DNA of 51,818 bases. It comes from a virus. Below, piece by piece: positions 4,576 through 51,818 of this stretch (within the stretch, counting starts at the first letter, position 1; every line of letters begins with the position of its first letter). The notes below the pieces were generated by a model. The model saw only the letters and a program-made list of their open reading frames with translations, was not told where the DNA came from and made no database searches. The DNA lies in IMG/VR virus record IMGVR_UViG_3300009537_004348, positions 1 through 51,818 of that record; one strand, 5' to 3'. Both the position numbers and the translations under genes were made by a program.

Positions 4576-4585
4576 GTTTATTACC

Positions 4586-4765: not shown

Positions 4766-4776
4766 GAAGCCTCCTT

Positions 4777-5703: not shown

Positions 5704-5716
5704 TTTAATTCCTCCA

Positions 5717-6772: not shown

Positions 6773-7512
6773 TTCTTCTTTTTAACTCGCTTAGAAAATG
6801 GAGGCTTGTCAGTTATTTTCTCAATCTTATCCAAGTTCATATATGGGCTTTCGCCATAATCGTAATTTCTGCGCCAAAAGTCTGGCAAGTTTTCATTATG
6901 CTCGCTGTCTCTTGGTGAGAGGTGACGCTCTTTCTTCTTTTTTTTGCCAGCTGTTAGTTCTGGTTTAGCTGACCCACGAACACCAGCCACACTGTTTGAA
7001 GTGTCAACCTCATACTCTCCAGGCTCCGGTCCTAAAAGATTAGTAAGTTCTGCCCAACCTTTACCTACCCAGTATTTCCAATCCTTTGCATTATCTTCTT
7101 GACTGTGCATTTTTTCCAGCATAGAGTAATACTTAGGGTCTTCCGCTAAATGGTCTAATGCTATTTCTTTAGCCAAGCCCCTATCGTTTGTGTGCTCAAG
7201 CTCTTCTTTAATGCCCTTTTCCAACTCTTTCTTATCTACGTCCTTTTCAGAAAGCTTATCGCCCTTTCCTCCTGGCAATTGATCATCAGCCTGTTGTGTC
7301 TGAGTTTGCTGCTGCTGCTGTGCTTGTTGTTGCTGCAATCGCATCTGCTCTAATTGCTGAACCTGAGTTTCCAATTGCTCCACAGTGTTGGTAAGAGTTT
7401 GAAGCTGGTCAGGCAAATTTAGATTCTGCAAAGCCTGCAACTGTGTCTTCAGATTCTCTAAAGTCTGTGGTGCTGTGGAAGTTTGCATCCCTGTTTGAGC
7501 TTTTCGTTTCAT
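6769..7512 (-). CDS. Gln-rich coiled-coil protein with a DUF5661-like segment, 247 aa
   Basis: Residues 15-80 are a glutamine-rich coiled coil with a poly-Q stretch. Residues near 95-135 contain EELEHTNDRGLAKEIALDHL and then EDPKYY, which matches my memory of the DUF5661 pattern found in phage and bacterial proteins. The C-terminus is lysine-rich. It is coupled at both ends by ATGA overlaps. Function is unknown. A scaffold-like or internal virion role is possible. Confidence 0.8.
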   Translation of the reverse strand: MKRKAQTGMQTSTAPQTLENLKTQLQALQNLNLPDQLQTLTNTVEQLETQVQQLEQMRLQQQQAQQQQQTQTQQADDQLPGGKGDKLSEKDVDKKELEKGIKEELEHTNDRGLAKEIALDHLAEDPKYYSMLEKMHSQEDNAKDWKYWVGKGWAELTNLLGPEPGEYEVDTSNSVAGVRGSAKPELTAGKKKKKERHLSPRDSEHNENLPDFWRRNYDYGESPYMNLDKIEKITDKPPFSKRVKKKK

Positions 7513-8276
7513 AATGCTTTTACCAATAGTCGCTTTTGTATTAGAATATCCGAAATAGTTTTAGTCAATGGAACCAGAGGAAGAAGCTTATACTCTATTA
7601 GCATCTCGATACCTTTGTCGGCGTCCATTAGCACTATCTCGTTCATCTTGTCTTGCACGAATTTCTGAGGAAGATTCTGTATCTTCTTACGATTTGCTCG
7701 CATCGCAGACTTTAGCCCATCATCCAGCTTGAAATCGTATTTGATAGCGAATCTTATAGCCCTCAATATTCGTCTTGGGTCTACACCTATCGTAATGGCT
7801 GGGTCTATAGGGCATTTGATTAGTCCTGCCTGTAAATCTCCTACGCCCTCTCCAGTTAAATCATATATAGACCTGAAATCTAAACTTTCTAACAGTGTAT
7901 TTATAGTGAAGTCTCTACTGTAAATCTCCAACTTCATATCGTCTACATTAGATACTCCCATCTTCTTCAACTCATCTTCTACTCCGGGAGCTTTAAAGTT
8001 GCTAGAAAAATCTATATGTAATCCCTCTACATCTATAGAGCTATGCCCATCATCATAAGTCCTAAGATTACTATCAGGAAAGTATCTACCAACTGCTTCA
8101 GCCAACTTAACGGAATCTTTGTCACCAGTAGTTATATCTACATCTTTTATTTGAGACTTGGTTCCACGTTTACCCAATAATCTGTCTCGTGGTACGCCTC
8201 CTACTATAAAAGGCTGGCTCAGTTTCAATCTATCCGCAACTTTCTCAACACCTGAGAGGATTTCATCAACATTCAT
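7509..8276 (-). CDS. CCA-adding enzyme/poly(A) polymerase-like nucleotidyltransferase
   Basis: The 255-aa protein has the class II nucleotidyltransferase head: FIVGGVPRDRLLG (GG at 26-27) followed by the metal-binding DVD at 45-47. The usual RDFTIN motif comes next, then DPRRILRAIRFA, the neck segment of bacterial CCA-adding enzymes and poly(A) polymerases. These enzymes add CCA or A tails to RNA 3' ends. At 255 residues it lacks the long body and tail of cellular enzymes. It sits inside the structural cluster and is coupled to the coiled-coil gene, an odd place for an RNA enzyme. Substrate is not predictable. Confidence 0.88.
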   Translation of the reverse strand: MNVDEILSGVEKVADRLKLSQPFIVGGVPRDRLLGKRGTKSQIKDVDITTGDKDSVKLAEAVGRYFPDSNLRTYDDGHSSIDVEGLHIDFSSNFKAPGVEDELKKMGVSNVDDMKLEIYSRDFTINTLLESLDFRSIYDLTGEGVGDLQAGLIKCPIDPAITIGVDPRRILRAIRFAIKYDFKLDDGLKSAMRANRKKIQNLPQKFVQDKMNEIVLMDADKGIEMLIEYKLLPLVPLTKTISDILIQKRLLVKAL

Positions 8277-11146: not shown

Positions 11147-12274
11147 TTAGTTAACCCTATTTAGAATTTGTTCACGGCTATCGAATATTCTATGCGGAAT
11201 AGAGTAGCCAGTAGAGTCTGGAGTCTGAGCTGACACTGAGCTTCCCGGATGATAATCTCCATCCATGTCAGTATATCCAGTTTCAAAGTTGTAAATCTTT
11301 CCAGTTACAGGACATTGGTATACACCATCACCAATTCTGGCCATCTGAACCCCAACCAAGTCAGGAGAGTATCTGGTCTGAAGTGCCCCGTGTGGTGCTG
11401 CCTCTTTCTTAGTTTCCTTCGCCTTATCGCCAGATTCATATGTGCTTACGTGATGGTCTTTGCGCCCCTCGAAGTCTACTCTTTCTTGGTCCTTCTTAGG
11501 CTCACGAACCTGCATTGAGTGATGATACTTAGAATCATATGCCTTGGCACGCTCACCCTTTGGGTCAGCTTCCTGCCAATCCATTACATCTTCTGCATAT
11601 TTCTCAACAAAGGCATCTATCATATCAGCCTGATTACTTGCACCCAGTTTATCCAGACGATCAGCTAAATCAGCAAGCTTCTCAAATACTGGCTTTAAGG
11701 AAGCCGTACCTTGCATCTGAGACTCGGCACTCAACTCAGCATACTGCTCAATCTCACGCAACAAGTCTATTTTAGCTCTTTCATCAGAGGGGTTCTCTAA
11801 GAACTTCTCCAAAAGCATATTTATTTCGCCTTGTGCATTTTCCATTAGTCCAGCATACTCTGGGTCTGTAGCGGTGTCTTCTTCGCCCATCATCTCAGTA
11901 GTAGATGGCCACTTATCTCTGTCAAGCTTAACATGGCCTGTTGCTTTGAGCCACTTATCTAGTTCCCCCGGGCGAAATACATCATATCCAGCCTCGGCCA
12001 AAGCTCTATGCATAGACTCCATCATTCTTTCTTTCTGATTAGCTTCAGCACTCTCTCGCTCTGCGGCAGGCAACTCAGAGGTTGGCTTACCCACATATAC
12101 TTGTCCAGGAGGATGTCCATGTTCTTTTTCATATTCTTTTCTGAATTCCTCATCGTCATCAGGAACCAGAGAGTATGCAGCCTCTTGAATCATAGCATCT
12201 ACTTGCCCTGCCGCTTCATGCTCACCCTGTTCATCCAGAAGATTTGCTAGTGCTATTAGTTCTTGGATATTCAT
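11147..12274 (-). CDS. Protein with two helical-hairpin copies, 375 aa
   Basis: Two copies of the cluster's hairpin are visible. One is at the N-terminus (ELIALANLLDEQGEHEAAGQ) and one is near residues 195-225 (KLADLADRLDKLGASNQADM). The region between them is acidic and helical. The C-terminal 90 residues look different (GVYQCPVTGKIYNFETGYTD), possibly a small beta fold. The start lies behind GGAGGCG. Function is unknown, probably structural. Confidence 0.78.
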   Translation of the reverse strand: MNIQELIALANLLDEQGEHEAAGQVDAMIQEAAYSLVPDDDEEFRKEYEKEHGHPPGQVYVGKPTSELPAAERESAEANQKERMMESMHRALAEAGYDVFRPGELDKWLKATGHVKLDRDKWPSTTEMMGEEDTATDPEYAGLMENAQGEINMLLEKFLENPSDERAKIDLLREIEQYAELSAESQMQGTASLKPVFEKLADLADRLDKLGASNQADMIDAFVEKYAEDVMDWQEADPKGERAKAYDSKYHHSMQVREPKKDQERVDFEGRKDHHVSTYESGDKAKETKKEAAPHGALQTRYSPDLVGVQMARIGDGVYQCPVTGKIYNFETGYTDMDGDYHPGSSVSAQTPDSTGYSIPHRIFDSREQILNRVN

Positions 12275-12287
12275 TGAACGCCTCCGA

Positions 12288-14015
12288 TTAAGTTAGTAAG
12301 AGCTTAGAGGTACTGATAGTAGCACCACCCTCTTCTAGTGGGTTTAGCTTATTACGCTCCACTGAAGACTTCATTTGGCAATTGCCCTGCACATCAGCCA
12401 CTACATTATGTAATGGAACACCGAAGTGTCCGCATCGAGCATAAATGGAGCCCTTACCTGCAGGAATTACCTTGTTGCAAGTATGCTGCGCTGTCTCTGC
12501 TTGCTTCTCCAGATTTGCTTTCTGCATCAGCATGTGATTGTAGTCAGCGATAGCATTTCTGTGGTCTTCTTCGCTGTAACGTTCACCGATTTGCTCCAGC
12601 ACTGCTTCTGCGCTGATATAACTATTGTCAGCAACAGCAGTCAATAGCTGTTCTTTTAGCTCAGGCAGCGTCATGTATGCAAATGCTGTTTGATAAATCT
12701 TGGAGCTTGTAGATGCTGCAGGAAGTTCAGCTGCGAACCTCTGCAATTTGGAAGGAATAAAGTCGACCACCAGCCCATCGTATGCAAATACTTTAGGGAA
12801 TAGTGGAGCAAATGTGTCAGAAGCTGTAGCAACCATTTCTACAGGAACTTCGATATCAACCGGTCCCTTTGATGTAGGAATAGTGGCCAAAAAGACCACT
12901 GAGTTGCCACTCTCTGAGCCGAACCTAACTTGTGCCTTAAATCCCGCTGCTTTTAGCTCAGAAAGAACCATGCGCTTTCCAGTATCAATTGCCTGTCTGC
13001 CAAATGCACTGACAGCTTCTAGAACATCGTCTTCAAAGTCTTTTGCTAAATGTGCAAGCTCTTTGGGCATCTGGACGTCAGGAGTTGTGTCAATATCTGC
13101 CCGTGGCTCCTCATATTCCCTATCCACAAACAGATTAGGAGTGTTTAATGAAACTGGCGCATTGCCTTCTCCAAAAAGCTTGGCTAAATCAGTAAACTCA
13201 TCTTCAGAAGTTTTGCGCTGGCCGGATATAATGCCGACAGCTGCCAAAACATCAGAAACTTTTGGTATATTAAAATCTCTTGCTTCGCCCTTTTTGTCTA
13301 CAAAGTATTGGAGGTTGTTGCCTGCTAGAGGCTCTAAATGATCATCAGCTACGAATGTGCTGGGAAGTAGAAGTTGCCCGTCTTCTGCTAAGTGAATTGG
13401 AATCGCTACAGACACTCTGCCGTTTCGAGTGTCAATATGTGCTGCGTATACAAGTGTTTGGTGATTACCACCCAGAGTCTCTACGTTTGGCTTTTTGTAA
13501 CCAAGCGATTCAAGCTCTAATCTAACGTATTCTCTACCCGTCTTTGCTTTCTTTTCATCATAAGCCTTTAGGTGAGTCATACTGCCGTCAAATGCTGACT
13601 GTAAGGCGTTCACAAGATTCTGGTCTATCATATCATCTGTAGAGATTCCAGAAGGTTCTGCGTCAACCCTGGTCATATTAACGTAGTCAGAGTTTTGAGA
13701 TGTGAACTCAACTCTGTCGTGCGGCAGTAGATGGCCAAGAACATCTCGAAACTTAGATGCGCTAGATAAGCGAACCAAGTCATTATAGATGTTGGCTATC
13801 TGTTCCTGGCTAATAGTAGCACCATCTGGCGCCTTGTCAGCCATTTTCTCAATAGTAAAGGCTACTTGTCGTATAACAGTATCCTCTGGGAATCTTTCAT
13901 ACGCGGCACGAGTTTGGCGATACACGTCACCCAGCATAAACTCTCGACCCTTTTGGGCATTTAGGGCATTCTCTGCAATCTGGAGTAGCTGAGAAATATC
14001 AAGCTCGTAAGTCAT
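12288..14015 (-). CDS. Large protein with internal domain duplication, 575 aa
   Basis: Residues about 159-224 and 345-413 look like two copies of one alpha/beta domain. Each starts with TG+, then a V..EL...G(Y/F)K helix, then a V(Y/F).A.I.T..G.V strand and a VP or IP strand, and ends with F..D. The C-terminus (from about 520) has Cys and His residues spaced like a zinc site (HTCNKV, ARCGHF, PLHN, GNCQM). No family is recognised. It starts behind GGAGGAAAAC. A virion or injected protein is plausible from location. Confidence 0.78.
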   Translation of the reverse strand: MTYELDISQLLQIAENALNAQKGREFMLGDVYRQTRAAYERFPEDTVIRQVAFTIEKMADKAPDGATISQEQIANIYNDLVRLSSASKFRDVLGHLLPHDRVEFTSQNSDYVNMTRVDAEPSGISTDDMIDQNLVNALQSAFDGSMTHLKAYDEKKAKTGREYVRLELESLGYKKPNVETLGGNHQTLVYAAHIDTRNGRVSVAIPIHLAEDGQLLLPSTFVADDHLEPLAGNNLQYFVDKKGEARDFNIPKVSDVLAAVGIISGQRKTSEDEFTDLAKLFGEGNAPVSLNTPNLFVDREYEEPRADIDTTPDVQMPKELAHLAKDFEDDVLEAVSAFGRQAIDTGKRMVLSELKAAGFKAQVRFGSESGNSVVFLATIPTSKGPVDIEVPVEMVATASDTFAPLFPKVFAYDGLVVDFIPSKLQRFAAELPAASTSSKIYQTAFAYMTLPELKEQLLTAVADNSYISAEAVLEQIGERYSEEDHRNAIADYNHMLMQKANLEKQAETAQHTCNKVIPAGKGSIYARCGHFGVPLHNVVADVQGNCQMKSSVERNKLNPLEEGGATISTSKLLLT

Positions 14016-14034
14016 AATAGTTTTCCTCCAATAA

Positions 14035-14508
14035 TTATGCCAATTCTGGGAACTGGCTTAATAGGGCATCTCGTCTTTCAGAATCTAGCTCCTTAAACAA
14101 CTTTTCTTTTATAGCTGTATCTGAACTGAGTTTTTCTACCAAAGTTTCTTGAAAAAGATGTACATCAGTTCTATCAAACCCGAATTCAGCTGATGCAAAG
14201 CGACGAATTGGGGTATTCTTATATAGCAGGGTCACGCTCTCACCTTGAGAATCCGACAACGCTGCCCAATGGCTACTCTTAGATTCCAGCCCTTTATCAG
14301 GGCTTTCCTCATCAGAATACTGCGCCACAAGATAAGATTCTCCGTTTTCGCCCTCTTCTAATATCCAAATGGGGTCAACGGGTCCGCTTTTGAGCTGAAA
14401 TACATCAAAAGCTACCTTGCGAAACAGGTGCTTATTGGGTTCGTAGGGAATTCTGCCTGGATCAGACACGACGGCTCCTGCTAGTTTTTGCCAATCTAGA
14501 GTTTCCAT
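14035..14508 (-). CDS. Unknown protein, 157 aa
   Basis: I chose ATG 14508 (METLDWQKLAG) because AAAGGAG lies seven bases upstream. An in-frame GTG further upstream has no such site. The protein has a likely mixed alpha/beta core and a helical C-terminus. No family is recognised. It is the first gene after an intergenic gap that holds a terminator and a TATAAT box, so it probably opens the morphogenesis transcription unit. Confidence 0.75.
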   Translation of the reverse strand: METLDWQKLAGAVVSDPGRIPYEPNKHLFRKVAFDVFQLKSGPVDPIWILEEGENGESYLVAQYSDEESPDKGLESKSSHWAALSDSQGESVTLLYKNTPIRRFASAEFGFDRTDVHLFQETLVEKLSSDTAIKEKLFKELDSERRDALLSQFPELA

Positions 14509-14570
14509 TAAACCACTCCTTTTCATATTGATTTTTGACACAAGAAGCCTTTGGGTAGACTTCTCCTAAC

Positions 14571-14600
14571 ATTATAAGTGGAAAATATTAATAGAAAGAG
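14571..14600 (-). promoter_or_regulatory. Candidate promoter before the morphogenesis cluster
   Basis: A perfect TATAAT (minus strand, 14576-14571) lies between the GAPDH terminator and the 157-aa gene. No good -35 TTGACA is present at normal spacing, so a phage-specific sigma factor or an activator may be needed, or the match may be chance. Confidence 0.4.
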
Positions 14601-14608
14601 GAGTTTAT

Positions 14609-14643
14609 AAGAAAGCGGGCACCAGTTTTACCCGGCGCCCGCT
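14609..14643 (-). terminator. Intrinsic terminator after the GAPDH-like gene
   Basis: On the minus strand a 10-bp stem (AGCGGGCGCC with GGTGCCCGCT, one G-U pair) closes a 10-base loop and is followed by TTCTT. It lies 26 bases after the GAPDH-like stop codon. Confidence 0.8.
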
Positions 14644-14668
14644 AATGAGTATCTCAACACGATGTCGA

Positions 14669-15769
14669 TTATATCTCTTGAAATACGTAAGGATTAAAGC
14701 AGCTTAGCCTTTCCTCTACCGTACTCGGGTCTAGAAAGTGCAAAACTGCCGCTATAGAGGACAGGAGAGAGTTCCCGTCCTGAGGAGTAAAGGCAAACCC
14801 TGTAATAGTTGGCCCTATTGAGTTGTAATTTGGCTCAGGCGCTCGCACCTGAACTGTAGGAGTAACGACTACGGTTTGGCTCAATATACGACCATAGAGG
14901 CCGTAATCGCGTCCAAAAGAGAATACTTGGTTAGACGTCACTTTGTTTGTGAGAGCAATCATAGGGTTCTCTCGAAGCTTCGCCAAAGCATCCTCTGCAG
15001 TTTTCATTACACCGTTACTTATGTGGTCCAGAGTTATAGAAAAACGAACAGCATGCATATACTGTGTGTTTAGTTTTACCGCACTGGAGTACAGCTTAAT
15101 GTGGGGAAACTGGTCCTTCAATAAATGAAAAGCATCTCTCGCATGATGAGTGCCAAATTCAGGGTCATCATGTTTACCTACATTGATACTGGGAACAAAT
15201 CCGCCATTCTGAGAGATATCGTTTGCCCTACGTAAGCAAACAAAATCTCCGCTACGAATCCCTCCGGGCGTAACAGATGAAAGTGAGTTCTCGAAACTCT
15301 TAATAAGAACCGCAAGGTTATGAGTATTACAGCTAACCACTTGGATAAATTGGCCTTCGGGAAAATCAGTTATACCTCTGGCATACATCTTCCCAAAGCC
15401 GAATTCAGAGCCTTGTGCTATGAATCCTTTAACTTTATCCTTGTATTTATTGTAGTACTCTTGTTTATTTGATAATCCGACACCTGAGGGAGTGCAATCT
15501 ATTACCACGGATGCTCGCTCAATTGCCTCTTCGCGTGTCAGAGTTGGGTTGACGCCCAGCTCTCTAAACCCATGAAATTTATCAGGGTCGGTTGAAAGCT
15601 TTGCGCCATAACTTAAAAGCTGTTTAACCTTTGACATATCATGTGCCAAAGGCGTATTTTTGTGAAACGTTACTTCATTGATTCCTAGTTTCTCACTATG
15701 GCGAGCCAGTAAACCTATAAGAGGCTCGCCTATGGTCCCTGTGCCGACCACATGAACAATGTTTGTCAT
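14669..15769 (-). CDS. Archaeal-type (type II) glyceraldehyde-3-phosphate dehydrogenase homologue
   Basis: The 366-aa protein begins with a Rossmann motif (VVGTGTIGEPL). It carries the pattern of type II, archaeal-style GAPDH: VIDCTPSGVG with N101 downstream, then VVSCNTHNL with the presumed catalytic C147, then LRRANDISQNGG and the MHAVRF segment near 238. GAPDH oxidises glyceraldehyde 3-phosphate using NAD(P). The lysine/glutamine-rich loops usual in archaeal enzymes are changed (for example IAQGSEFGFG), so substrate may differ. It is coupled to IF-3 by ATGA and ends at a strong terminator. This is unusual in a phage. Catalysis of the classical reaction is not shown by sequence. Confidence 0.78.
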   Translation of the reverse strand: MTNIVHVVGTGTIGEPLIGLLARHSEKLGINEVTFHKNTPLAHDMSKVKQLLSYGAKLSTDPDKFHGFRELGVNPTLTREEAIERASVVIDCTPSGVGLSNKQEYYNKYKDKVKGFIAQGSEFGFGKMYARGITDFPEGQFIQVVSCNTHNLAVLIKSFENSLSSVTPGGIRSGDFVCLRRANDISQNGGFVPSINVGKHDDPEFGTHHARDAFHLLKDQFPHIKLYSSAVKLNTQYMHAVRFSITLDHISNGVMKTAEDALAKLRENPMIALTNKVTSNQVFSFGRDYGLYGRILSQTVVVTPTVQVRAPEPNYNSIGPTITGFAFTPQDGNSLLSSIAAVLHFLDPSTVEERLSCFNPYVFQEI

Positions 15770-19247: not shown

Positions 19248-19275
19248 TTTATAGACGAAAAACCTATCAGGTCAA
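19248..19275 (-). promoter_or_regulatory. Sigma-70-type promoter for recA
   Basis: On the minus strand TTGACC (19275-19270) is followed after 16 bases by TATAAA (19253-19248), five of six consensus matches in each box. The -35 box lies in the last codons of dnaJ. The same architecture with a 16-base spacer occurs before the ssb gene. Confidence 0.65.
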
Positions 19276-20307
19276 GCTTTTAATCTGCCGTAAAAGCTCT
19301 TTTTCTTTATCAGAGGCTTTTTGCGGCATGTCTATCTTTATCTTAACCAGGTGGTCTCCCGTTTCTTTTTTTGCTTTTATACCCTTGCCTTTTACTCTAA
19401 GAACGCTATCTGGCTGAATTCCTTCTGGTATTGTCATATTCACAGAACCGTGTATGGTTTCTATGCTTCTCTTAATTCCCAGAATGGCATCCACGTAGCT
19501 TACGTGCTCCTCAGAGATTATATCTAGTCCTGCACGCCCGAACTTTTCGTGTGGGTCGACTATAACGGAAATATAGAGGTCTCCTGCCTCTTCTCCGTAT
19601 TCGCTTGGTGCTCCCTTGCCAGCCAGCCTCATTGACATACCGTTGTCGATTCCTGGCGGTATAGTCATGGTGATTTTGCTGGAGTTGGACTTGGTGCCAT
19701 TGCCACTACAGGTTTCGCACTTTATTTTGACCGTAAACCCAGCGCCTTTACATTGTGGACAGGTGTGAACTATCTGCATAAACCCCTGCTGAGTGCCCAC
19801 CTTTCCTTGACCCTTACAAGCCGAGCAGGTATCTAGAGAGGTTCCTTGATCTGCACCAGTTCCCTGACAATCAGTACAGGCAGTTAGGTGGTCTACAATG
19901 ATGGTTTTGGATGCCCCCATTGCTGCATCCATAAAACTAATGCGCAGAGTTTTGTGTAAATCATCTCCCCTAAAAGCACCAGTTCTGCGGAAAGGTCCAC
20001 CAAAATCCCCTCGCTCACTCCATTGGCGACGGACTCTCTCATACATATCTCTAATATCCCGATATGCATTACCTTGGGTTTGGCCAGATGATGAAACATC
20101 ACCAAACGTATCGTACTGTTTTCTTTTCTCAGCGTCACATAGTAACTCATACGCTGCTGAGATTTCCTTAAATTTCTCTTCGGCTTCCTGATTGTCAGGA
20201 TTTTTATCAGGGTGGAACTCAAGAGCGAGCTTTCGATACGCCTTTTTTATTTCTGCGTCGCTTGCGTTTTTTTCCACGCCCAAGACTTTGTAAGGATTTT
20301 GCATCAT
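19267..20307 (-). CDS. dnaJ: DnaJ (Hsp40) co-chaperone
   Basis: This is a full type I DnaJ of 346 aa. The J domain includes [16 protein letters not shown] with the essential HPD. A short linker follows, then four CxxCxGxG-type zinc repeats ([32 protein letters not shown]) near 143-205. The C-terminal substrate-binding domains complete it. It would stimulate host or phage DnaK. The glycine/phenylalanine linker is short. The first 89 bases overlap the end of the RuvC gene in another frame. The J domain needs this start, so the overlap is real. Confidence 0.95.
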
Positions 20308-22881: not shown

Positions 22882-25800
22882 TTATCTAACCTCGCCCACA
22901 CCCTCTAATCTATCCAAAACCAGAGTAGTGTTGCCTTTGTATACATTTACTTTGCAAATTGCTCGGATGGGTCGTCCTGTTGCAAAATGCTCTTTGTGCT
23001 TACTCCAATGCTCTGGCCAAGCAGTAAGCTCTGCAGCATCACCATTGGCGTCCGTAAGACTACAGATACCAAACTGACGCCCCTTATTAGAGCCAGATTT
23101 GATTTTGCGCTGGTTGATGGCTTGCACTACAGCCTCTACTCTAATAGCTGTCTTTTCAGCTATTTTCTTAAGCCTATTAAAAGGTGTGACGCCTTTACCA
23201 GTGAAAAAGCCACCATATACATCGTTAATATCAACTGACAGGTATTCTCCCAGCACTTCGTTTTCATACTTACCCTGTGTTTCCTTATCCCACTCTTCAG
23301 TGATAATGTCGTAAGAGAAGTCGCTCATTACATCCCAGTGATTACGCCCCTCAACACACACCTTCTTGGCATGCTTAAGTCCAGCGGTTCTAATATCACT
23401 GTATTGTTCAAAAGCTGCCTTCCTTGTAACATTAAGGCTGTCAAAGCATCCGGCCTTAGCTAAAGCCTGAATAACATCCTTCTTAACAACAGCGGAAGTG
23501 GTTCTGTATAGAAAGTCTGCTAGAGACTTAAACTTACTCTCCTGTTGGTTAGCCAAAATATCATCCACAGCACGTGCACCAACACCCTTTATGGCCTCTA
23601 GTCCCGTTACAATCGTGTTATTATCTAACACTGTAAATGAGTGACCACTACGATTGATGTCTGGAGATTGAATCCTAAGCTTAAGATTCTTTGCCTCTCT
23701 CTTGTACAAACTGATATTTGCATCTCTTGTTGGAGATGAAGCTTTTTCAACTTCAGACTTCAGAACCGCAGCCATGAATGCTGCTGGGTAATAGTGCTTG
23801 TAGTATGCAGAATGATAACCATTGATACTGTAAAGAATTCCGTGAGCCTTGTTAAAGCCGTAGCCAGCAAACGGCTCAATAATCTCTTCCCAGATACCAA
23901 GCGCATCCTCTTGCTTTATTTTACTATGCGCAACTGAATCATTGATAAACTCTTGCTTTAGTTTTTCAGCCAACTCTTTGCCCTTTTCTTTGAGCTTTGT
24001 TAGCTTTCTCAAACCATCAGCTTTGTTTAGGTCCCAGCCAGCTACAACGTTAGCTAACTTAGCCAATTGCTCTTCGTAAACACAGATCCCCAAGGTGTCT
24101 TGCAAAGCTTCGCGCAAGCACTCATACTTATATGTAACTTTCTGTTTACCATCACGACGAGCAATGTAATCCAAGCGAGACTTCTTAGCAGAAGGTCTAC
24201 CTAATGCATTAACCAAGCTTAGGTCCTCAATGCTTTCAGGTCTAATCTGCTTGCATAGAGCCTTCATGTGCGCCGATTCCATTTGAAACACACACATTGT
24301 TTTACCCTTTGCAATGTCTGCCCATACGGCTTTATCATCCAATGGAACTTCTTCTGGGTCCAATGGTGTCATTCCTAACTTACGGGCATTCTTAACACAA
24401 TTATCTATGATTCTAAGATGCTCCAGTCCAAGCAAGTCAATCTTGATTAGCCCTTCTTCTTCGCACCTATTCTTTTCGTACTGAACTGAGACTGAACCAT
24501 CTTTATCAGTCCTCAGGGGAACATAGGTGGTTAAAGGAATGTCGCCGATAACAATTCCAGCAGCATGGGTTGCATATGCTTTCTCTAGTCCTACCAACTT
24601 GGAGCCGTAACGATGTAACTCAGGATACTGCAACACATACTTTGCAAACTCTGGAGACATATCCATCGCTTCTTCTAGGGTATTAGCATCATTTGGAATA
24701 GCTTCGGTAATCTTATTGGCAATCTTAAACGCCTCACTCTTGCTACCTCCCAACTCCAGAGAACGTGCCACGTCCTTGATAACAACCTTTGGTGTCATCC
24801 TACTAAGATTAGATACGTGAGCAACGTGGTCAGAACCATACCTATCGATAATGTACTGCTTAACCCAATCTCTTCCGTCTGGGCTGAAGTCATTATCGAT
24901 ATCTGGGAACGCGGTTTTCTCACGATTTAAAAATCTCTCAAACAACAGTCCATATTTGATAGGGTCTACGGCATGAATATCTAGAAGGTTCGCGACCAAC
25001 GAACCACCGACACTGCCTCGACCTGGACCAACTGGAATGCCCCTTGCCTTTGCCTTGAGAATGAAATCAGATGTTATGAGCATGTAAGAGCAAAAATTCT
25101 TCTCTTCGAGAATTTTGATTTCATTCTTCATGCGTTTTACGTACTCTTCCCTTTTTGAGCCCTTGAGGTGTGCGTACTTTTTGTTAAACGCATTAATGCA
25201 TCTGAATCTCATAAAGGCATGATCGGCAGGAATATTGTTCTCTGATTTCCTAGTCTTTAACCACTCCTGAAATTCTGGATAATCGTCTTCTGTTTCAAAA
25301 TCAAATTTAGGAAAGCGGACTTCTTCCCTATCTAGATAAACAGGGTCAGTGCACTTTTCAGCTATCTCTACAGAGTTATTGCACAACTCTATAGCAAGCT
25401 TTCGATTAAAATGTTCAGCAAAGTGGCTAATGATATCGCCACTGCTTTTCATGTAAAACTCTTCAACTTCGTAACGGTGTCTAAGAGGGTCACTTAGTGG
25501 CTTTTTGCTACTGATGGCCATAAGCATATCGTGAATCTTAGCATCTTCCTTGGTGAGATAATGTATATCTGCTGTAGCAACTGTCTTAACTCCGCACACC
25601 TTAGCGACCTCTATTAGCTTCTTGTTGATATGGTTTTGGCTGACCACTATGATATCTTTGCCGCTCGGAGTTTTTTGGATTTCTCCTGTCTTCTTGTCAC
25701 GCGCAAACACCTCTAGATTGTGTGGCTGCAATTCTAGATACAGGTCATCGCCAAAGATACCCTTTAGTCGCTCAACAGTTTTTATCACATTGGCATGGCA

Positions 25801-26292
25801 GGAGGTTTCTGCCCACTCGCCCCCTTCCTCGTCGTAGACAAACATCTGTCGAGAAATCAAGCCAGAGCCGCAAGCAGTCAGGCAGATAATGCCTTCATGA
25901 TGCTCCTCAAGCATATTCCAATCAATTCGAGGGAACACCTTGCCTATCACACCTACGTACTGATAATTTTGATAGCCCTTCCAATTCAGCATAAGCAGGT
26001 TCTTATAACCCGCCTCGTTCTTTGCCAATAGCACTATGTGACGACGCTTAGCCTTCTTGTCCTCTACGGTATCAACAAAGTAAGCCTCACAGCCCGGGAT
26101 GTATTTCACCCCGTGCTTCTTGGATGCCTTTCGGGCGTCAAAGGCTGCTGCTATTGTCCCATGATCAGTAATAGCTAAAGCAGGCTGTCCTAACTCAGCA
26201 GCCTTTTTGAACATATCATATACGTTTGTCATAGCATCTTGCATGCTACCAATAGATGTGTGTGCGTGTAGGTGTACGAAATTATCCCTCAT
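22882..26292 (-). CDS. dnaE: DNA polymerase III alpha subunit (DnaE type)
   Basis: The protein is about 1136 aa and replicates DNA as a family C polymerase. The N-terminal PHP domain has HLHAHTSIGS and ITDHG with its metal-binding histidines intact, so it may proofread. The palm has PVGPGRGSVGGSL and the catalytic PDIDNDF near 463-469, with the third aspartate probably in IKIDLLGLEH. The finger, helix-hairpin-helix (GLEAIKGVGARAV) and OB-fold (VEAVVQAI) regions follow, so it is full length. Several ATG codons crowd the start. I favour 26292, which overlaps the upstream gene by 11 bases. Confidence 0.95.
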   Translation of the reverse strand: MRDNFVHLHAHTSIGSMQDAMTNVYDMFKKAAELGQPALAITDHGTIAAAFDARKASKKHGVKYIPGCEAYFVDTVEDKKAKRRHIVLLAKNEAGYKNLLMLNWKGYQNYQYVGVIGKVFPRIDWNMLEEHHEGIICLTACGSGLISRQMFVYDEEGGEWAETSCHANVIKTVERLKGIFGDDLYLELQPHNLEVFARDKKTGEIQKTPSGKDIIVVSQNHINKKLIEVAKVCGVKTVATADIHYLTKEDAKIHDMLMAISSKKPLSDPLRHRYEVEEFYMKSSGDIISHFAEHFNRKLAIELCNNSVEIAEKCTDPVYLDREEVRFPKFDFETEDDYPEFQEWLKTRKSENNIPADHAFMRFRCINAFNKKYAHLKGSKREEYVKRMKNEIKILEEKNFCSYMLITSDFILKAKARGIPVGPGRGSVGGSLVANLLDIHAVDPIKYGLLFERFLNREKTAFPDIDNDFSPDGRDWVKQYIIDRYGSDHVAHVSNLSRMTPKVVIKDVARSLELGGSKSEAFKIANKITEAIPNDANTLEEAMDMSPEFAKYVLQYPELHRYGSKLVGLEKAYATHAAGIVIGDIPLTTYVPLRTDKDGSVSVQYEKNRCEEEGLIKIDLLGLEHLRIIDNCVKNARKLGMTPLDPEEVPLDDKAVWADIAKGKTMCVFQMESAHMKALCKQIRPESIEDLSLVNALGRPSAKKSRLDYIARRDGKQKVTYKYECLREALQDTLGICVYEEQLAKLANVVAGWDLNKADGLRKLTKLKEKGKELAEKLKQEFINDSVAHSKIKQEDALGIWEEIIEPFAGYGFNKAHGILYSINGYHSAYYKHYYPAAFMAAVLKSEVEKASSPTRDANISLYKREAKNLKLRIQSPDINRSGHSFTVLDNNTIVTGLEAIKGVGARAVDDILANQQESKFKSLADFLYRTTSAVVKKDVIQALAKAGCFDSLNVTRKAAFEQYSDIRTAGLKHAKKVCVEGRNHWDVMSDFSYDIITEEWDKETQGKYENEVLGEYLSVDINDVYGGFFTGKGVTPFNRLKKIAEKTAIRVEAVVQAINQRKIKSGSNKGRQFGICSLTDANGDAAELTAWPEHWSKHKEHFATGRPIRAICKVNVYKGNTTLVLDRLEGVGEVR

Positions 26293-26650
26293 CATTCTCC
26301 TCATTTTCTTTTTGTTGTGCGACCATTATAGGCATATTGAGAGTTTCGGCGAGCCACGAAATCAGGGCCGTCTCAAACTCACATTTTCGCCAATCGTTGG
26401 GGTTTCCTTCTAGTTGCTTTGGAATAGCAAACTTAATAGCGTTTTTTCCAACCTTACTATCTATCTTATATCCATCCTTACTATCTATGCGCAACAGCTT
26501 AACTGTTTTAAGGGGATAAATAGGTTTACCAAAAGATTCAAGATGTTTGGCTATTTCTGCGTTTACTTGGCAGGGAAGAGAATACATGAATGTTAAACAC
26601 TTCTTGCATGCCGTCCTTTGAATCTTTACAATATCTTCGAATACTAACAT
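26282..26650 (-). CDS. Unknown protein upstream of the polymerase, 122 aa
   Basis: The longer open frame runs back through another gene. ATG 26650 (MLVFEDIVKIQRTACKKC) lies behind GGAGAGATAC and is preferred. The N-terminus has CKKCLTF and a nearby Cys. The rest looks like a small alpha/beta domain. It lies just downstream of a terminator and overlaps the polymerase start. No family is recognised. Confidence 0.72.
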   Translation of the reverse strand: MLVFEDIVKIQRTACKKCLTFMYSLPCQVNAEIAKHLESFGKPIYPLKTVKLLRIDSKDGYKIDSKVGKNAIKFAIPKQLEGNPNDWRKCEFETALISWLAETLNMPIMVAQQKENEENDEG

Positions 26651-26964: not shown

Positions 26965-28257
26965 TTACTCCTTAACCTTGCTCTTGGCAATATCAATAAT
27001 ATAATCTATCACTTTTCTAGACCTCAGTACGCCTACAAATGCATCCATCTGATTAGACCTATAGAGCATACTGACTAACTCATCTTTTGTAGTATTATTC
27101 CTGCTGGCGTGCTCTTCTAGCATATCGTCCAATTCGGCAGGCGTAACCTCTACCCCAGCTTCCTTGTTATAGATGGCATCTATTAGTATAGCCCTCATAA
27201 CATTTTTCTTTGCTGCGGGCTTTATCATTTCCACAACATTTGGTGGAAGCTTCTGTCCTCGTTTTTGAGCTTGATTAATGAGACGTTGAGCCTCGAAATT
27301 AACCATTGATTCTGGGACATCAAAATCATTCAGTTCTAAAAGCTTGTTTGTAATTTGTACTTCAAGCGCATTTCTTTCCTGCAACTGAACGCCTCTCTCT
27401 GCCTCTTGTTTTACGTGATTCTCAAGCTCTCCCACAGAGTCGTATCCAACCATCATTGCGAGGTCTTCATCCACCTCAGCCAGCTTGGTTTCAACGATGC
27501 TATGTAGTTTCACATCAAAACGAGCATCCTTGCTTGCTAGATGGCTTGCACTATAGGTTTCTGGAAAAGTCACATTGATTATCTTTTCATCTCCTATCTG
27601 CATACCTACCAGTTGCTCTTCAAATCCCGGAATAAGAGTGCCTTCTCCTAGAGACTTAATAGAAAACCCTTCAGCAGAACCTCCTGCAAAAGGCTCAACC
27701 TCTCCGTCTAGCTTGCCCACAAAATCCAGTATTAGAGAATCGCCTTCTTGAGCGCCTCTATCTAGAATTTGATTATGTTCAGCAAACTGCTCTCTATATG
27801 CCTGCAGCTTATTATCTATCTCTTCTTGTAAGTTTGATTCTGGAAATTCCAGTGCTAAATCTTCATAACCCACTGGGTCAATTTTAGGAAGGATTTCAAC
27901 AACCAGTTCTACAGTATACGAATTATCGAAACTGAATTCGCCAGGGTATTCATCTTCTCCAGGAGTAAAATCCTTTATTGTTGGATTACCCACTGGATTT
28001 AAATCATGCTCTCTGACAGCTTGTGTATAGTACTCAGATATAATTATCTGGGCTATAGACGGCCTGGCCTTGTGACCAAAGTGCTGCTTGATTCTACCAA
28101 CAGGAGCCTTTCCCTTACGAAAGCCGGGGATTTGAACATCTTTCTTAATCCCTTCGAAAAATTCTGTAAACTTTCTGTCTACACTGTCTGCTGAAACTTG
28201 AATTGATATTTTGCGTTGGACGCTATTAACATCCTCAACTTGAATTGTATCTTGCAT
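26965..28257 (-). CDS. tig: Trigger factor (ribosome-associated chaperone/PPIase), full length
   Basis: The 430-aa protein matches cellular trigger factor from end to end. The ribosome-binding domain carries the signature GFRKGKAP at 45-52. The FKBP-type prolyl isomerase domain (about 160-255) includes GDSLILDFVGKLDGE and LIPGFEEQLVGM. The long helical C-terminal arms fill the remainder. Trigger factor binds L23 at the exit tunnel and shields nascent chains. Length is about that of bacterial Tig (around 430). It ends just before a small acidic gene and a terminator. A whole trigger factor is rarely seen in phages. Confidence 0.95.
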   Translation of the reverse strand: MQDTIQVEDVNSVQRKISIQVSADSVDRKFTEFFEGIKKDVQIPGFRKGKAPVGRIKQHFGHKARPSIAQIIISEYYTQAVREHDLNPVGNPTIKDFTPGEDEYPGEFSFDNSYTVELVVEILPKIDPVGYEDLALEFPESNLQEEIDNKLQAYREQFAEHNQILDRGAQEGDSLILDFVGKLDGEVEPFAGGSAEGFSIKSLGEGTLIPGFEEQLVGMQIGDEKIINVTFPETYSASHLASKDARFDVKLHSIVETKLAEVDEDLAMMVGYDSVGELENHVKQEAERGVQLQERNALEVQITNKLLELNDFDVPESMVNFEAQRLINQAQKRGQKLPPNVVEMIKPAAKKNVMRAILIDAIYNKEAGVEVTPAELDDMLEEHASRNNTTKDELVSMLYRSNQMDAFVGVLRSRKVIDYIIDIAKSKVKE

Positions 28258-45847: not shown

Positions 45848-46438
45848 TTAGCCTTTCGATTTGGTTTTCTTGGTATCTTGCTGTTTAGGCGCCTTCCTCG
45901 GCACCATCTTTCTCGATGGAAATACCTTGTCCGCTATTCCATATTTAATAGCCTGATTGGCAGACATATAATTGTCTCCCTGCATATCCTTAAGCACCTT
46001 AGCTTTTGTTTGTCCAGTGTGCTTGGCTAACAGCGTAATATAGATATCTTGCATACGCTTTATTTCGGCCACTGATGTTTCCATTTCGCTTACAGTACCC
46101 ATGGACCCACCAGAAATTTCATGAATCATGATACGTGTGTTAGGACTCACAAATCTGTAGCCCTTATCTCCAGCAGACAGTAATAGAACTCCTGCAGACA
46201 TTACTTTGCCTATACCAACTGTATTGATAGGACAAGAGGAAGTGCGCATACAGTCGTACATTAGTAACGCTGCGTCAACACTTCCTCCATATGTATCAAT
46301 ATAAATCGTAATAGGCTTAGTATGGTCTATATACTCTAACGCTGTCATTTGTTCCAGGAACGCTGCCCCTGTATCTTCTTTAATAGCACCCGAAAGCACT
46401 ATACGCCGTAGTTGTTCATGGAAATTGTTAATCGCCAT
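45848..46438 (-). CDS. clpP: ClpP-family serine protease
   Basis: The 196-aa protein has the ClpP fold and triad: S81 in GIGKVMSAGVLLLSAG, H106 in IMIHEISGG, D155 in QGDNYMSANQAI. IDTYGGSVDAAL is the oxyanion-region glycine motif. The C-terminus is a Lys-rich tail. ClpP chambers degrade proteins with Clp ATPases. Some phages use ClpP-like enzymes as head proteases, but this gene is 44 kb from the portal and sits directly after an E1-like and JAMM pair. Confidence 0.93.
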   Translation of the reverse strand: MAINNFHEQLRRIVLSGAIKEDTGAAFLEQMTALEYIDHTKPITIYIDTYGGSVDAALLMYDCMRTSSCPINTVGIGKVMSAGVLLLSAGDKGYRFVSPNTRIMIHEISGGSMGTVSEMETSVAEIKRMQDIYITLLAKHTGQTKAKVLKDMQGDNYMSANQAIKYGIADKVFPSRKMVPRKAPKQQDTKKTKSKG

Positions 46439-46447
46439 ACTATCTCC

Positions 46448-47083
46448 TTATACTTGATGAACACCAATATCTTTAAGGGTAATCTCCCTATTCAGGCACT
46501 TGTTAGTAGTAACAAACTGTGTTATCGACTCTGCAAGTACCGCAACTGTAAAGTGAACTAAGTTCGCAGCCAAAGGATAGTCACAGACATCCTCTTGCTT
46601 CACCTCTACCTTTGGAATCTTGTAATTGGCATTCCATTTTATTTCTGCAAAACCATTATCGCTCATACCAGCATGTACACAGGGGAGCCTTAGTTCAAAG
46701 CACGCATCATTTACAAGTCTACGGCTTTCCCAGTTGTCAAATACATCTACAACTAAGTCGTGTCCCTTAAGCAGTTTCTGAGCATTATTTTCACGCAATT
46801 GCTTATCTACAGCGTTTACAACCTTCTTGGTTGCCTGGTGCATTAGAGATTGTATGGCCTTGGCTTTCTTTTGTCCAACATCACGCAAGGTGTAAACCTG
46901 TGTTGCGATATTCTTGTCTTCAACCCTGTCCATATCAATGACAGTTATCTTGTTGAAACCTTGACGCAACAACACGCTGATTAGATTTGAGCCAAGAGCA
47001 CCAGCTCCACAGATACAGATATTGAAATTCTGAATCTTGTCGAAAGCGCCCTTGGACCTATAGTTTATTTCATGCTCGTTCAT
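46448..47083 (-). CDS. E1/ThiF/MoeB-like ubiquitin-activating-type enzyme
   Basis: The 211-aa protein has the ATP-binding GAGALG (26-31), the acidic VIDMDRVEDKN stretch (D50, D52), TLRDVGQKKAKA and DVFDNWESRR (D116). The position of the usual arginine after DKN (NIATQ) holds Thr. C167 (EDVCDYPLA) is a candidate catalytic cysteine. E1 enzymes adenylate the C-terminal glycine of ubiquitin-like or sulfur-carrier proteins. Its start overlaps the JAMM gene end by ATGA. No zinc CxxC pairs of MoeB are present. Confidence 0.92.
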   Translation of the reverse strand: MNEHEINYRSKGAFDKIQNFNICICGAGALGSNLISVLLRQGFNKITVIDMDRVEDKNIATQVYTLRDVGQKKAKAIQSLMHQATKKVVNAVDKQLRENNAQKLLKGHDLVVDVFDNWESRRLVNDACFELRLPCVHAGMSDNGFAEIKWNANYKIPKVEVKQEDVCDYPLAANLVHFTVAVLAESITQFVTTNKCLNREITLKDIGVHQV

Positions 47084-47688
47084 TTTTCTGGCTTTCTTGG
47101 CAGATTTTCTACCAATGGTTTAAGTAACTCAATCAGTTTGTTAAACCTATCGCGTAGGTCAGATTGAGTTTCCTCTATGTTGGTCAGGCGCTCCTGAATC
47201 CCTTCAAATATACCCGCCTCATCGTTTTCACTGAAGAACTCGCCTTCAGTCAAAAAGTCTACAGGATTGAAGAAAGACTCCTGAGGGTCAAGCCAAACAT
47301 CATAATTCACATCATTATTTGTGCTTACACCAATCTCTTGGAAGTTTATCTTACCGGTGTCTGACTTTGTAAACAACCAACCGTTCACCTTCTCATCTGT
47401 TTCTATTATACATATAAGGCTCTTACCTAAGCACTTAACCCACTGAACCATAGTATTGATATCAATTTGACTCATCTGGTTCATTCCGCTTGGATGGGTG
47501 TGATAAAAGCCAGCAACATCCTTATACTTATCTTCCCTATCCCAGACAGACTTATAATCAAACTCAACTGCCCCAGGATTATGCTGGGTATCAGGGTTCA
47601 TACTTATAACAGAAAGGTGGGGTGAGCCTTCCTTGTGAAACATCTCATAACTCACCAGTAACTTATACACTTCAAAAAACTTGCTCAT
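47080..47688 (-). CDS. JAB/JAMM-domain isopeptidase
   Basis: The 202-aa protein has an intact JAMM zinc motif: H63, H65, S73 and D76 in GFYHTHPSGMNQMSQID, with an upstream Glu candidate at E15 or E20. JAMM enzymes remove ubiquitin-like or sulfur-carrier tails. The C-terminal 35 residues form a coiled coil that may recruit a partner. It is coupled to the E1-like gene and lies nine bases after the 316-aa gene. Confidence 0.9.
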   Translation of the reverse strand: MSKFFEVYKLLVSYEMFHKEGSPHLSVISMNPDTQHNPGAVEFDYKSVWDREDKYKDVAGFYHTHPSGMNQMSQIDINTMVQWVKCLGKSLICIIETDEKVNGWLFTKSDTGKINFQEIGVSTNNDVNYDVWLDPQESFFNPVDFLTEGEFFSENDEAGIFEGIQERLTNIEETQSDLRDRFNKLIELLKPLVENLPRKPEK

Positions 47689-47696
47689 GGCTCACC

Positions 47697-48647
47697 TCAA
47701 TAGTAATCATCGTAATCGTCGTCGTCATAGTATTGCTGTGGTTCATTATTCTCAGGATGGATACTCCAGTAATCCCTCTCACTCATGCCACCTTGTCCAA
47801 TGTGAACAACATGCCCACGATTACGAGCTTGCCTACATACACCTACTAAAGACTGAAGGTCAAACACCTTGTCTCCGCCAGATAGGCAAATTCCTGCGAC
47901 TACTACGTTTAAATTTTCTTTATCTAGCACTGATGTATAAGTGCTGTTAGTCTTGGAATCTCTCCACTTAACAGATACGTTATCTCCACGCTCTGTGAAA
48001 CCGTCTAGCTTTGCGCCATACTTATCCAGCTCATTATGCAACCTCTTTTCGATATCGGTCATATGAGCTTCTTTATGAAACTGTACAGCATATTCAAAAG
48101 CTTTACGCTCTTCAGGGGTTAGACCAGAGCTTACTTCATCTGTAATAGAGTAGTTCTGCTTATCTAACCTGTCACGCAACTTCTCAATCTTCTCTACGTC
48201 GCTTCCGAACTTAATGCTATCGAACCAGAAATTACCGCCATCAAACCTTGCTTCAACACTGTCCATTATTTCAACATTGTCTGCACAAAGCACAGAGGTA
48301 AGTCTTGGCTCAACACCAAAACGATGCTTAAAACTGTTAGTGTGTGATGGATATGCAAGCCATCTGCCTACGTTATACACCAGCACCAACTCCACCTTAG
48401 GAAGTAGACCTAGATATTCGTCCTTCTCATATGGTTCAGCATCCCGCACAAACTTTGCAGTGTTTGCATCTGTTGCACGAAATACACCAAACCCGTCCTT
48501 CTTAAATTTCTGAGTCTTGAGTCTGTATATAACTCCATTAAGGCGTACAATAATGTTTGCGCCGCCCTTTATATAAGGAGAGAATATGTCCTGCTTCAAG
48601 AATTCCTTTTCTTGCGCAGACAACTTGTTTAATAGGTCGTTTATCAT
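47697..48647 (-). CDS. Unknown protein coupled to JAMM and E1 genes, 316 aa
   Basis: No family is recognised. The chain looks mixed alpha/beta in the first 165 residues and again at 210-285. Residues 286-287 are Gly-Gly after a strand-like VVHIGQ, followed by a 29-residue very acidic and tyrosine-rich tail ending DYDDYY. A Gly-Gly followed by a removable tail is the layout of ubiquitin-like precursors. The JAMM gene follows directly. Cysteines at CADN, ICLSGG and GVCRQ could alternatively be E2-like. Neither is proven. It is coupled to the 79-aa gene by ATGA. Confidence 0.85.
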   Translation of the reverse strand: MINDLLNKLSAQEKEFLKQDIFSPYIKGGANIIVRLNGVIYRLKTQKFKKDGFGVFRATDANTAKFVRDAEPYEKDEYLGLLPKVELVLVYNVGRWLAYPSHTNSFKHRFGVEPRLTSVLCADNVEIMDSVEARFDGGNFWFDSIKFGSDVEKIEKLRDRLDKQNYSITDEVSSGLTPEERKAFEYAVQFHKEAHMTDIEKRLHNELDKYGAKLDGFTERGDNVSVKWRDSKTNSTYTSVLDKENLNVVVAGICLSGGDKVFDLQSLVGVCRQARNRGHVVHIGQGGMSERDYWSIHPENNEPQQYYDDDDYDDYY

Positions 48648-48883
48648 ATCTTTTTTATGTACTCCTTAATTACGTCTTCGCCTGCAGCGAAAGCATATTG
48701 CCCAAACTTAAAACTCAATATTCGAATGTTAAAAAGATTCAGGTCAGGAAAACTCTCGACCTGTATATCTGTTATAGTGCCTTTTGTACCTGCTGGCAAC
48801 ACTATGCTCCCATTCTCGTACTTTTTCACGAGCACAACCATTGAACCCACGTTCAGTATGTTGGAAGAATTAAGTGTTCGCAT
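48644..48883 (-). CDS. Small barrel-like protein, 79 aa
   Basis: The product has strand-like segments with LPAGTKGTITDI in the middle, which resembles small SH3/KOW-like beta barrels. The start follows the TROVE terminator by only a few bases and has no clear Shine-Dalgarno site. A later ATG at residue 15 is a weaker alternative. It is the first gene of the JAMM/E1/ClpP run. Confidence 0.72.
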   Translation of the reverse strand: MRTLNSSNILNVGSMVVLVKKYENGSIVLPAGTKGTITDIQVESFPDLNLFNIRILSFKFGQYAFAAGEDVIKEYIKKI

Positions 48884-48887
48884 AGTG

Positions 48888-48921
48888 TTTAAATAAAGAG
48901 AGGGCTACTAGAGCCCTCTCT
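48888..48921 (-). terminator. Intrinsic terminator after the TROVE gene
   Basis: AGAGAGGGCT / AGCCCTCTCT is a perfect 10-bp stem with a 5-base loop, followed by TTATTT on the minus strand, 36 bases after the TROVE stop. Confidence 0.88.
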
Positions 48922-48956
48922 TCTGGAAACCAACCAATGGAAATCGTTTGATATCC

Positions 48957-50687
<1,731 letters not shown>

Positions 50688-50688
<1 letters not shown>

Positions 50689-51818
50689 TATCCGCTCCTT
50701 ACAGCATTTACTACTTCAATAATTCGAGCGGAAGCATAATCAATCTCTTCTTCGGTATTTCCTTTACCTATTCCTATTCTTATGGCGCAATCAGCATTGT
50801 CTACGCCTAATGCCCTTATAACATGAGAGGGTTCAGGATTTTGAGATATACAGGCTGAGCCACTGGAGACAATAACGTCGTCCATGCCCAAAACGAGAGC
50901 CTCCGCCTGAACCCCTTTTATAGTCAAGTTTAGGTTGTTTGGCAACCTATTTTCCATCGTTCCGTTGATTTTTATATCATCAAGATTGTCTGTCAAGCTT
51001 TTAAGAAGTCTATCTCTAAGGCGTCCAATTTGCTCTCGTTCAGCAGGGGACTCTTCTATAAGTAACCTGCAAGCCTCACCAAAACCCACAATGGCTGGCA
51101 CATTAGAAGTTCCTGATGTAACTTCCTCTTGAAAGCCCCCGCATATAATAGGCTTTACTCTTGACTTATCTTTAATGTATAAAGCCCCTATACCTTTGGG
51201 CCCATATATCTTGTGAGCTGACATAGACAAAGCATCTATATTCATCCTCTGAACATCTATGTCCACCTTGCCTATCGCTTGAGTGGCATCAGTGTGGAAG
51301 AATACATTATTTCTCTTGCATATCTCGCCTATCTTTTCTATATTGTATATCGTTCCTATCTCGTTGTTGGCCGCCATCACTGATACAATGCCAATAGTGT
51401 CGTCAGAGGCCAAAATGTCATTTAGAGCTGTGAGACTTAGTAATCCTTGCCCGTCTACTTGAAGTAATATAACTCCATGTGCGCCATCTTGATTAATTCT
51501 ATCTACAGTTTTAAGAACTGAACTATGCTCTACGTTAGTGGTAATTATTTTTCTGGGACTTGTACACTTGGCCATAAGTCCTTGAAGCACTATGTTGTTT
51601 GCTTCTGTAGCACCACTGGTAAAACAAATTGCGTCTGTCGGTGCGTTTATGACTGCTGCTACTTGCTCTCTGGCTTGCTCAACAGCCTCTCTTGCATCAT
51701 TGCCAACCTCATGAACAGCAGAGGGGTTGCCGAAGCGTTCCGTCCAAAATGGCTTCATTGCCTCGACAACCCTCTCATCGCAAGGAGTTGTTGAATGATG
51801 GTCTAGATAGACTCTCAT
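50688..51818 (-). CDS. Cysteine desulfurase (NifS/IscS type)
   Basis: The 376-aa PLP enzyme is complete, with ATG at the last bases of the window. YLDHHSTTP opens it, the PLP lysine K203 lies in SAHKIYGPKG, and the catalytic loop SSGSACISQNPEPSH has C322. It moves sulfur from cysteine to acceptors for iron-sulfur clusters, tRNA thiolation or sulfur carriers. It is coupled to the 82-aa gene. Whether it serves phage iron-sulfur enzymes or the E1-like pathway is open. Its upstream context is outside the window. Confidence 0.93.

Follow-up and report, generated by a model that had tools for sequence, protein, structure and literature searches.

A candidate ubiquitin-like conjugation cassette built around a Ro60-like protein in huge phages and bacterial chromosomes

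The DNA analysed here (the window) is an IMG/VR virus record of 51,818 bases, a fragment of a phage genome whose phage genes include a GpA-type terminase ATPase adjoining DNA polymerase III alpha, and it contains a gene block that we consider probably to be the enzymatic half of a system for ubiquitin-like (UBL) conjugation arranged around a Ro60-like ring and tRNA-mimicking Y RNAs. The conserved core of the block comprises a TROVE/vWA protein, a 316-aa protein (X316), a JAMM metalloprotease, and an E1-like enzyme; these and their neighbours are listed below.

50688..51818, minus strand: NifS/IscS-type cysteine desulfurase; a lineage-specific neighbour that runs to the end of the record
50440..50688, minus strand: 82-aa protein in the slot held by the UBL gene of relatives; not recognisable as a UBL
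48957..50429, minus strand: Ro60-like TROVE/vWA protein, 490 aa; core member
48896..48922, minus strand: terminator-like hairpin AAGAGAGGGCT-CTAGT-AGCCCTCTCTT with TATTT after it, separating the TROVE gene from the 79-aa gene; read in the sequence
48644..48883, minus strand: 79-aa protein, SH3-like by eye; lineage-specific, not core
47697..48647, minus strand: X316, 316 aa, with invariant Cys254; core member
47080..47688, minus strand: JAMM/JAB metalloprotease, 202 aa; core in phages and Planctomycetes
46448..47083, minus strand: E1-like adenylating enzyme, 211 aa; core member
45848..46438, minus strand: ClpP peptidase, 196 aa, S81/H106/D155; adjacent only in this phage lineage, outside the core

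A first-pass annotation had described five intact, tightly packed genes on the minus strand between 45848 and 48883, encoding the 79-aa, 316-aa, JAMM, E1-like, and ClpP proteins. Re-reading of the open reading frames confirms this description, including the overlapping or near-touching starts and stops, with junctions of −4, +8, −4, and +9 bases. The Ro60-like gene beside the five-gene block, overlooked in that annotation, is more conserved than any other member of the set. The hairpin is absent from the terminator-scan list.

The genes TROVE-X316-JAMM-E1 occur in the same order and on the same strand in 15 phage contigs, including the window and LR756511 (14 if the near-identical L107 and L108 are taken as one), and two further contigs, L109 and L110, stop inside the cassette. 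In most of the 15 contigs the proteins are only about 22%–49% identical to those of the window. LR756511, a 595-kb huge phage, is the sole record in the GenBank phage collection matching both E1 and JAMM; it has the same gene order, with identities to the window of 43.6% (490-aa protein), 37% (316-aa protein), 32% (JAMM), and 40% (E1), and its rows were left out of the structure-prediction input. Neither ClpP nor the 79-aa gene lies beside its cassette. Single-protein scans of IMG/VR with E1 and JAMM returned no matches, so profiles were required, and the further contigs came from IMG/VR profile searches for which three proteins were each used separately. Because each of these searches recovers the other three genes, which were not used in it, the cassette order is not an effect of selection.

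The five-gene order proposed in the first-pass annotation is not the conserved unit, since the window and its nearest relative, 3300010413_002075 (L013; a 62.8-kb record), alone have ClpP and the 79-aa gene next to the cassette. The same restriction applies to the NifS and 82-aa genes, and all four are local additions. The 82-aa protein was considered as the UBL of the window and rejected: its hhalign probability against the UBL family is 1.9%, and the C-terminal glycine is not conserved in the relative.

Ro60, a conserved protein that binds RNA, is a major autoantigen in humans; bacterial Y RNAs tether Ro60 to a nuclease or adjoin RNA-repair genes. A profile of the TROVE family from the cassettes (12 members) matches the solved structures of Ro60 (9nen, E 1.2e-7) and a bacterial TROVE protein (9l5y, 3.5e-5) over the second half of TROVE plus the vWA domain, and in the same search generic vWA proteins fall below significance. 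Pfam detects the vWA part alone in some members. By this profile similarity to solved structures, the 490-aa protein is Ro60-like.

In most cassette phages, the gene directly upstream of TROVE encodes a protein of 70–90 aa that is predicted to fold like ubiquitin and has ...[YF]G at its C terminus. The terminus is a single glycine rather than Gly-Gly: phage UBLs end in ...RPEAVFG and the homologues at bacterial loci mostly in ...RPEAVYG. A stop follows [YF]G in 45 of 49 UBL matches; the other four, from two phages, end in FGKS or FGKIET. In L011 (contig 3300025121_000045) the UBL domain is fused to the TROVE N terminus, and in L012 a weak UBL candidate (E 0.055) lies between JAMM and E1. No Pfam family corresponds to the UBL. 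Its AF2 model (pLDDT 84) has a beta-beta-alpha-beta-beta arrangement, for which the best PDB matches in Foldseek are mostly ubiquitin-like (ISG15, SUMO, and the UBL domains of PLIC and FAF1), at E-values of at least 0.13—not significant by themselves—and probabilities of at most 0.87. Both the UBLs with residues after the glycine and the UBL-TROVE fusion are confined to JAMM-bearing phages, which would fit a role for JAMM as the protease that processes and deconjugates the UBL. Neither the window nor the nearest relative's entire 62.8-kb record yielded a UBL; the modifier of this lineage may therefore be distant in sequence or displaced.

The E1-like enzyme of the window matches the ThiF family (E=8.5e-35), with its best scores against ThiF/MoeB-type models. 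Its nucleotide-binding motifs are intact, as first reported (GAGALGSN at residues 26–33 and DMDR from residue 50), and D52, R53, N58, Q62, K73, D116, N117, R121, C135, and C167 are 100% conserved in 71 homologues. Cys167 is the candidate catalytic cysteine; judged from sequence alone, the protein thus has both the nucleotide site and the putative catalytic cysteine of an E1. The JAMM motif is likewise intact (H63-T-H65-x7-S73-x2-D76) and invariant in 12 phage homologues. The window protein scores 2e-4 against Prok-JAB, under the Pfam cut-off, and the family profile matches deubiquitinase-type JAMMs, with Rpn11-like and JAMM1 structures at about 6e-6 and AMSH matched too; motif and family similarity together place it among the JAMM/MPN+ metalloproteases.

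The first-pass annotation had listed the 316-aa protein as an unknown in one gene run with JAMM and E1. X316 is a conserved partner, being present in the 15 phage contigs and in 165 genome-collection matches, and Cys254, within AGICLxGxDxxFDLxSLxxV, is 100% conserved in 45 non-redundant sequences. The AF2 model (pLDDT 87.6) shows a beta-rich N-terminal part followed by a C-terminal helix, four strands, the cysteine, and a helix. No informative fold emerged from comparison with BFVD. On its motif and model, X316 is a candidate UBL-transfer (E2-like) or adaptor protein. The motif and the helix-strand-Cys-helix order are E2-like, yet no E2 is matched by Pfam, PDB sequence profile, or Foldseek (top 50 matches), and therefore X316 is not taken as a proven E2 and stays a candidate only. 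PF14461 (Prok-E2_B) occurs in only 1 of 79 cyanobacterial genomes, which leaves no E2 set for comparison. No classical E2 or E3 is recognised in the cassette.

In most loci, ARAGORN places tRNA-like genes next to UBL and TROVE; their anticodons drift, even among closely related Nostoc. Folded together with its flanks, such a gene has a basal stem, separated by an internal loop from a second stem, and a tRNA-like head. In an alignment of 25 such RNAs from phages and bacteria, compensatory change is seen in 26 of 28 pairs and 94% of cells are paired; the covariation score is 0.658, against at most 0.178 for slid versions. A covariance model gives strong matches around UBL/TROVE in phages and bacteria, with several copies per locus whose heads differ (five in tandem in L041). 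Relatives of the window thus carry RNAs with the 5′/3′ stem and tRNA-like domain of bacterial (YrlA-like) Y RNAs near a Ro60 gene, in agreement with the published description of YrlA (PMC8394870). No Y RNA was found in the window, as expected from its ending 1.4 kb upstream of TROVE; the nearest relative has four Y RNAs, placed some 8 kb upstream of that gene. Many cassette loci fall within tRNA-gene clusters.

The cassette also occurs on bacterial chromosomes. Among the 165 genome-collection relatives of X316, 80 were retained, mostly from filamentous Cyanobacteria but also from Gemmataceae, Myxococcales, Acidobacteriota, and others. E1 follows X316 in 54 of the 65 loci with at least 2.5 kb downstream, and where at least 7 kb is available upstream (56 loci), TROVE is present in 30 and TROVE together with UBL in 23. 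Of 146 cyanobacterial genomes, 13 have TROVE and the identical 13 have X316; the chance of identical sets is 8e-19 assuming independent genomes, which cyanobacteria, being related, are not. Eleven of these 13 genomes also have UBL, and Y RNA matches above 66 bits are found in all of those 11 and in no others. The next listed match, at 61 bits, is also in one of the 11, and the genome-wide background in the 146 genomes lies below 59 bits and probably consists of ordinary tRNAs. JAMM is missing from the cyanobacterial loci and mostly absent from bacterial loci in general: six of seven bacterial genomes searched whole gave no match, and the seventh gave two weak ones. Two planctomycete loci do have JAMM, and in one of them there are DUF1559 genes, which are typical of planctomycete chromosomes.

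These observations are, on balance, best read as a reversible UBL conjugation system that works on or from a Ro60-Y RNA particle, rather than as ClpP tagging. By analogy with known Ro60 RNPs, the Ro60-like TROVE/vWA protein would bind the basal stem of the Y RNA. The E1, whose motifs are in place, would adenylate the C-terminal glycine of the UBL and hold the UBL on Cys167, from where it would move to a lysine, possibly by way of X316 and its Cys254; the lysine would belong either to the Ro60-like protein or to a protein recruited by the RNP. JAMM, in turn, would trim UBL precursors and take the UBL off again. The UBL-TROVE fusion and the exact co-occurrence argue for the Ro60 particle as target or platform, and the position of many loci in tRNA-gene clusters makes a part in tRNA or RNA surveillance during infection plausible. 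In huge phages, the likely purpose would be to switch or divert, while the infection runs, a particle that serves RNA quality control or tRNA handling. It is a more tentative proposal, which we hold as possible, that in huge phages and filamentous cyanobacteria alike the Ro60-like ring with its Y RNAs selects RNA-bound proteins for reversible UBL conjugation or is itself the target.

Three other explanations bear on the same genes. E1/JAMM tagging feeding the adjacent ClpP for degradation, the model of the first-pass annotation, draws on the position of a ClpP gene that starts 9 bases past E1 in the window and overlaps E1 in the nearest relative, where it is 67% identical. The 196 residues of the peptidase match the CLP_protease family (E=4.3e-49), with the triad S81/H106/D155 intact as described; the cassette, however, has no conserved ClpP partner. 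ClpP is absent from 10 of the 12 other cassette-bearing phage records searched whole, those of 407 and 470 kb included; the remaining two are the close relative with ClpP beside the cassette and a 390-kb record with a distant ClpP elsewhere. Nor does ClpP adjoin any bacterial cassette examined, and the cassette contains no Clp ATPase gene. Its absence from relatives rules out ClpP as a core part, and a coupling of tagging to degradation is very improbable. The earlier placement of JAMM and E1 in a ubiquitin-like pathway is supported by the UBL with C-terminal glycine in most relatives' cassettes, whereas the link to ClpP falls away. The components could instead form a non-conjugating switch of the Ro60 particle, in which E1 would adenylate the UBL, or UBL and TROVE would be linked as a tether only, with no general modification of proteins, as the fusion in L011, the lack of a classical E2 or E3, and the dispensability of JAMM in bacteria would allow. 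Against this, the invariant cysteines C167 of E1 and C254 of X316 look catalytic in sequence and every phage checked has an intact JAMM motif, and we regard such a switch as improbable.

Sulfur transfer deserves somewhat more weight, although it too is unlikely. Here, E1 would activate the UBL, a desulfurase would make the thiocarboxylate, and sulfur would pass to tRNA or Y RNA in the manner of Urm1/Uba4, with JAMM recycling the carrier. This explanation is kept alive by the NifS gene of the window's lineage, which immediately precedes the 82-aa and TROVE genes in both the window and its relative, and it accords with the ThiF/MoeB-type affinities of the E1 and with the many loci among tRNA genes. 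NifS, however, is found beside no other phage or bacterial cassette, and no RNA-thiolating enzyme is recognised in the cassette. The CxxC zinc motif typical of ThiF/MoeB enzymes occurs in 0 of 71 E1s, which therefore lack the zinc site of sulfur-carrier E1s and, at only 209–268 aa, leave no room for a rhodanese domain; the single C-terminal glycine of the UBLs also counts against this route. More broadly, the cassette has the E1 fold and the C-terminal UBL glycine in common with Urm1/Uba4, ThiS-ThiF, and MoaD-MoeB, but differs from them in having neither CxxC zinc site nor rhodanese and in having a Ro60-like partner.

Bacterial UBL conjugation is known mostly from antiviral defence. The bacterial UBL/E1/E2/JAB operons (classes 6a–6e of PMC1779556; PRTRC; Bil/Bub), so far as the portions of the sources available to us describe them, resemble the cassette in combining a UBL with C-terminal glycine, an E1-like protein, and a JAMM protein in one mobile set. 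The cassette, in contrast, has no recognisable E2 and no tandem UBL, and its constant partners, the Ro60-like protein and Y RNAs, are not described in those portions. It falls outside PRTRC, as the window E1 scores 39.6 bits against a PRTRC ThiF cut-off of 144.75, and outside the Bil/CBASS-type E1-E2 systems, for which, among the PADLOC/NCBIfam models, only the E1 portion of the fused E1-E2 models is matched, alongside weak JAB matches. Bacterial Ro60 (Rsr) forms particles with YrlA, including RYPER with PNPase, and is found in RtcB operons (PMC8394870). The cassette shares with these systems a TROVE/vWA protein and a nearby-encoded RNA with a long 5′/3′ stem and a tRNA-like head, but has a UBL conjugation set in place of RtcA/RtcB and several Y RNAs per locus with differing heads. 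Jumbo phages with ROT/TROVE proteins, proposed to serve in RNA repair, have also been reported, and no UBL, E1, or JAMM partner is mentioned in the part of that source available to us (PMC7824862). A joining of TROVE or Y RNA with UBL/E1 was not found in the literature searched; several key reviews lie beyond that scope, and a prior mention is possible.

If the more tentative proposal is true that a Y RNA-loaded Ro60-like ring selects proteins for UBL conjugation or is itself the target, RNA surveillance and ubiquitin-like tagging would be joined outside eukaryotes. The cassette offers components that can be tested—UBL, E1, X316, JAMM, Ro60, and Y RNA, a complete set of which is present in contig 3300025131_011243—and may contribute to the way phages govern the fate of tRNA and RNA. 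A conserved Ro60-UBL cassette found both in distant huge phages and on bacterial chromosomes would add a new branch to ubiquitin-like biology in bacteria.

Between TROVE and the stretch running from the 79-aa gene to ClpP lies a terminator-like hairpin (window 48896-48922, minus strand), and the genes that it parts may therefore be carried on two separate transcripts.

Some related cassettes contain an extra gene: in the compared locus L006, an SPFH/Band-7 protein (13972-15165, plus strand) is placed between JAMM and E1, and in L016 a second vWA-like protein, identified by eye (11497-12252, plus strand), has TROVE on one side and the conserved protein X316 on the other. The Chroococcus locus L041 carries five tandem matches to the Y RNA covariance model (4241-4922, plus strand), flanked by TROVE and the small predicted ubiquitin-like protein, and some of these probably possess heads that differ from the tRNA-like head.

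L013, the nearest phage relative, encodes three tandem proteins (4581-5863, plus strand) with the N-terminal start MK[IV]RxGFVSNSSSSSF, as well as ORFs resembling, by eye, elongation factor Ts and glutamine synthetase (3220-3834 and 6470-7555, respectively; plus strand).

Other phage-encoded genes in the window include:
19267-20307, minus strand, DnaJ
26965-28257, minus strand, trigger factor
22882-26304, DNA polymerase III alpha

The window additionally encodes a phage tmRNA (40722-41133, minus strand; tag GEDNFFAGLFDETVEGLTALAA; Rfam E 1.9e-38), and tmRNA is also found in L013 and L006. Together, phage-encoded tmRNA and ClpP suggest a ribosome-rescue route run by the phage.
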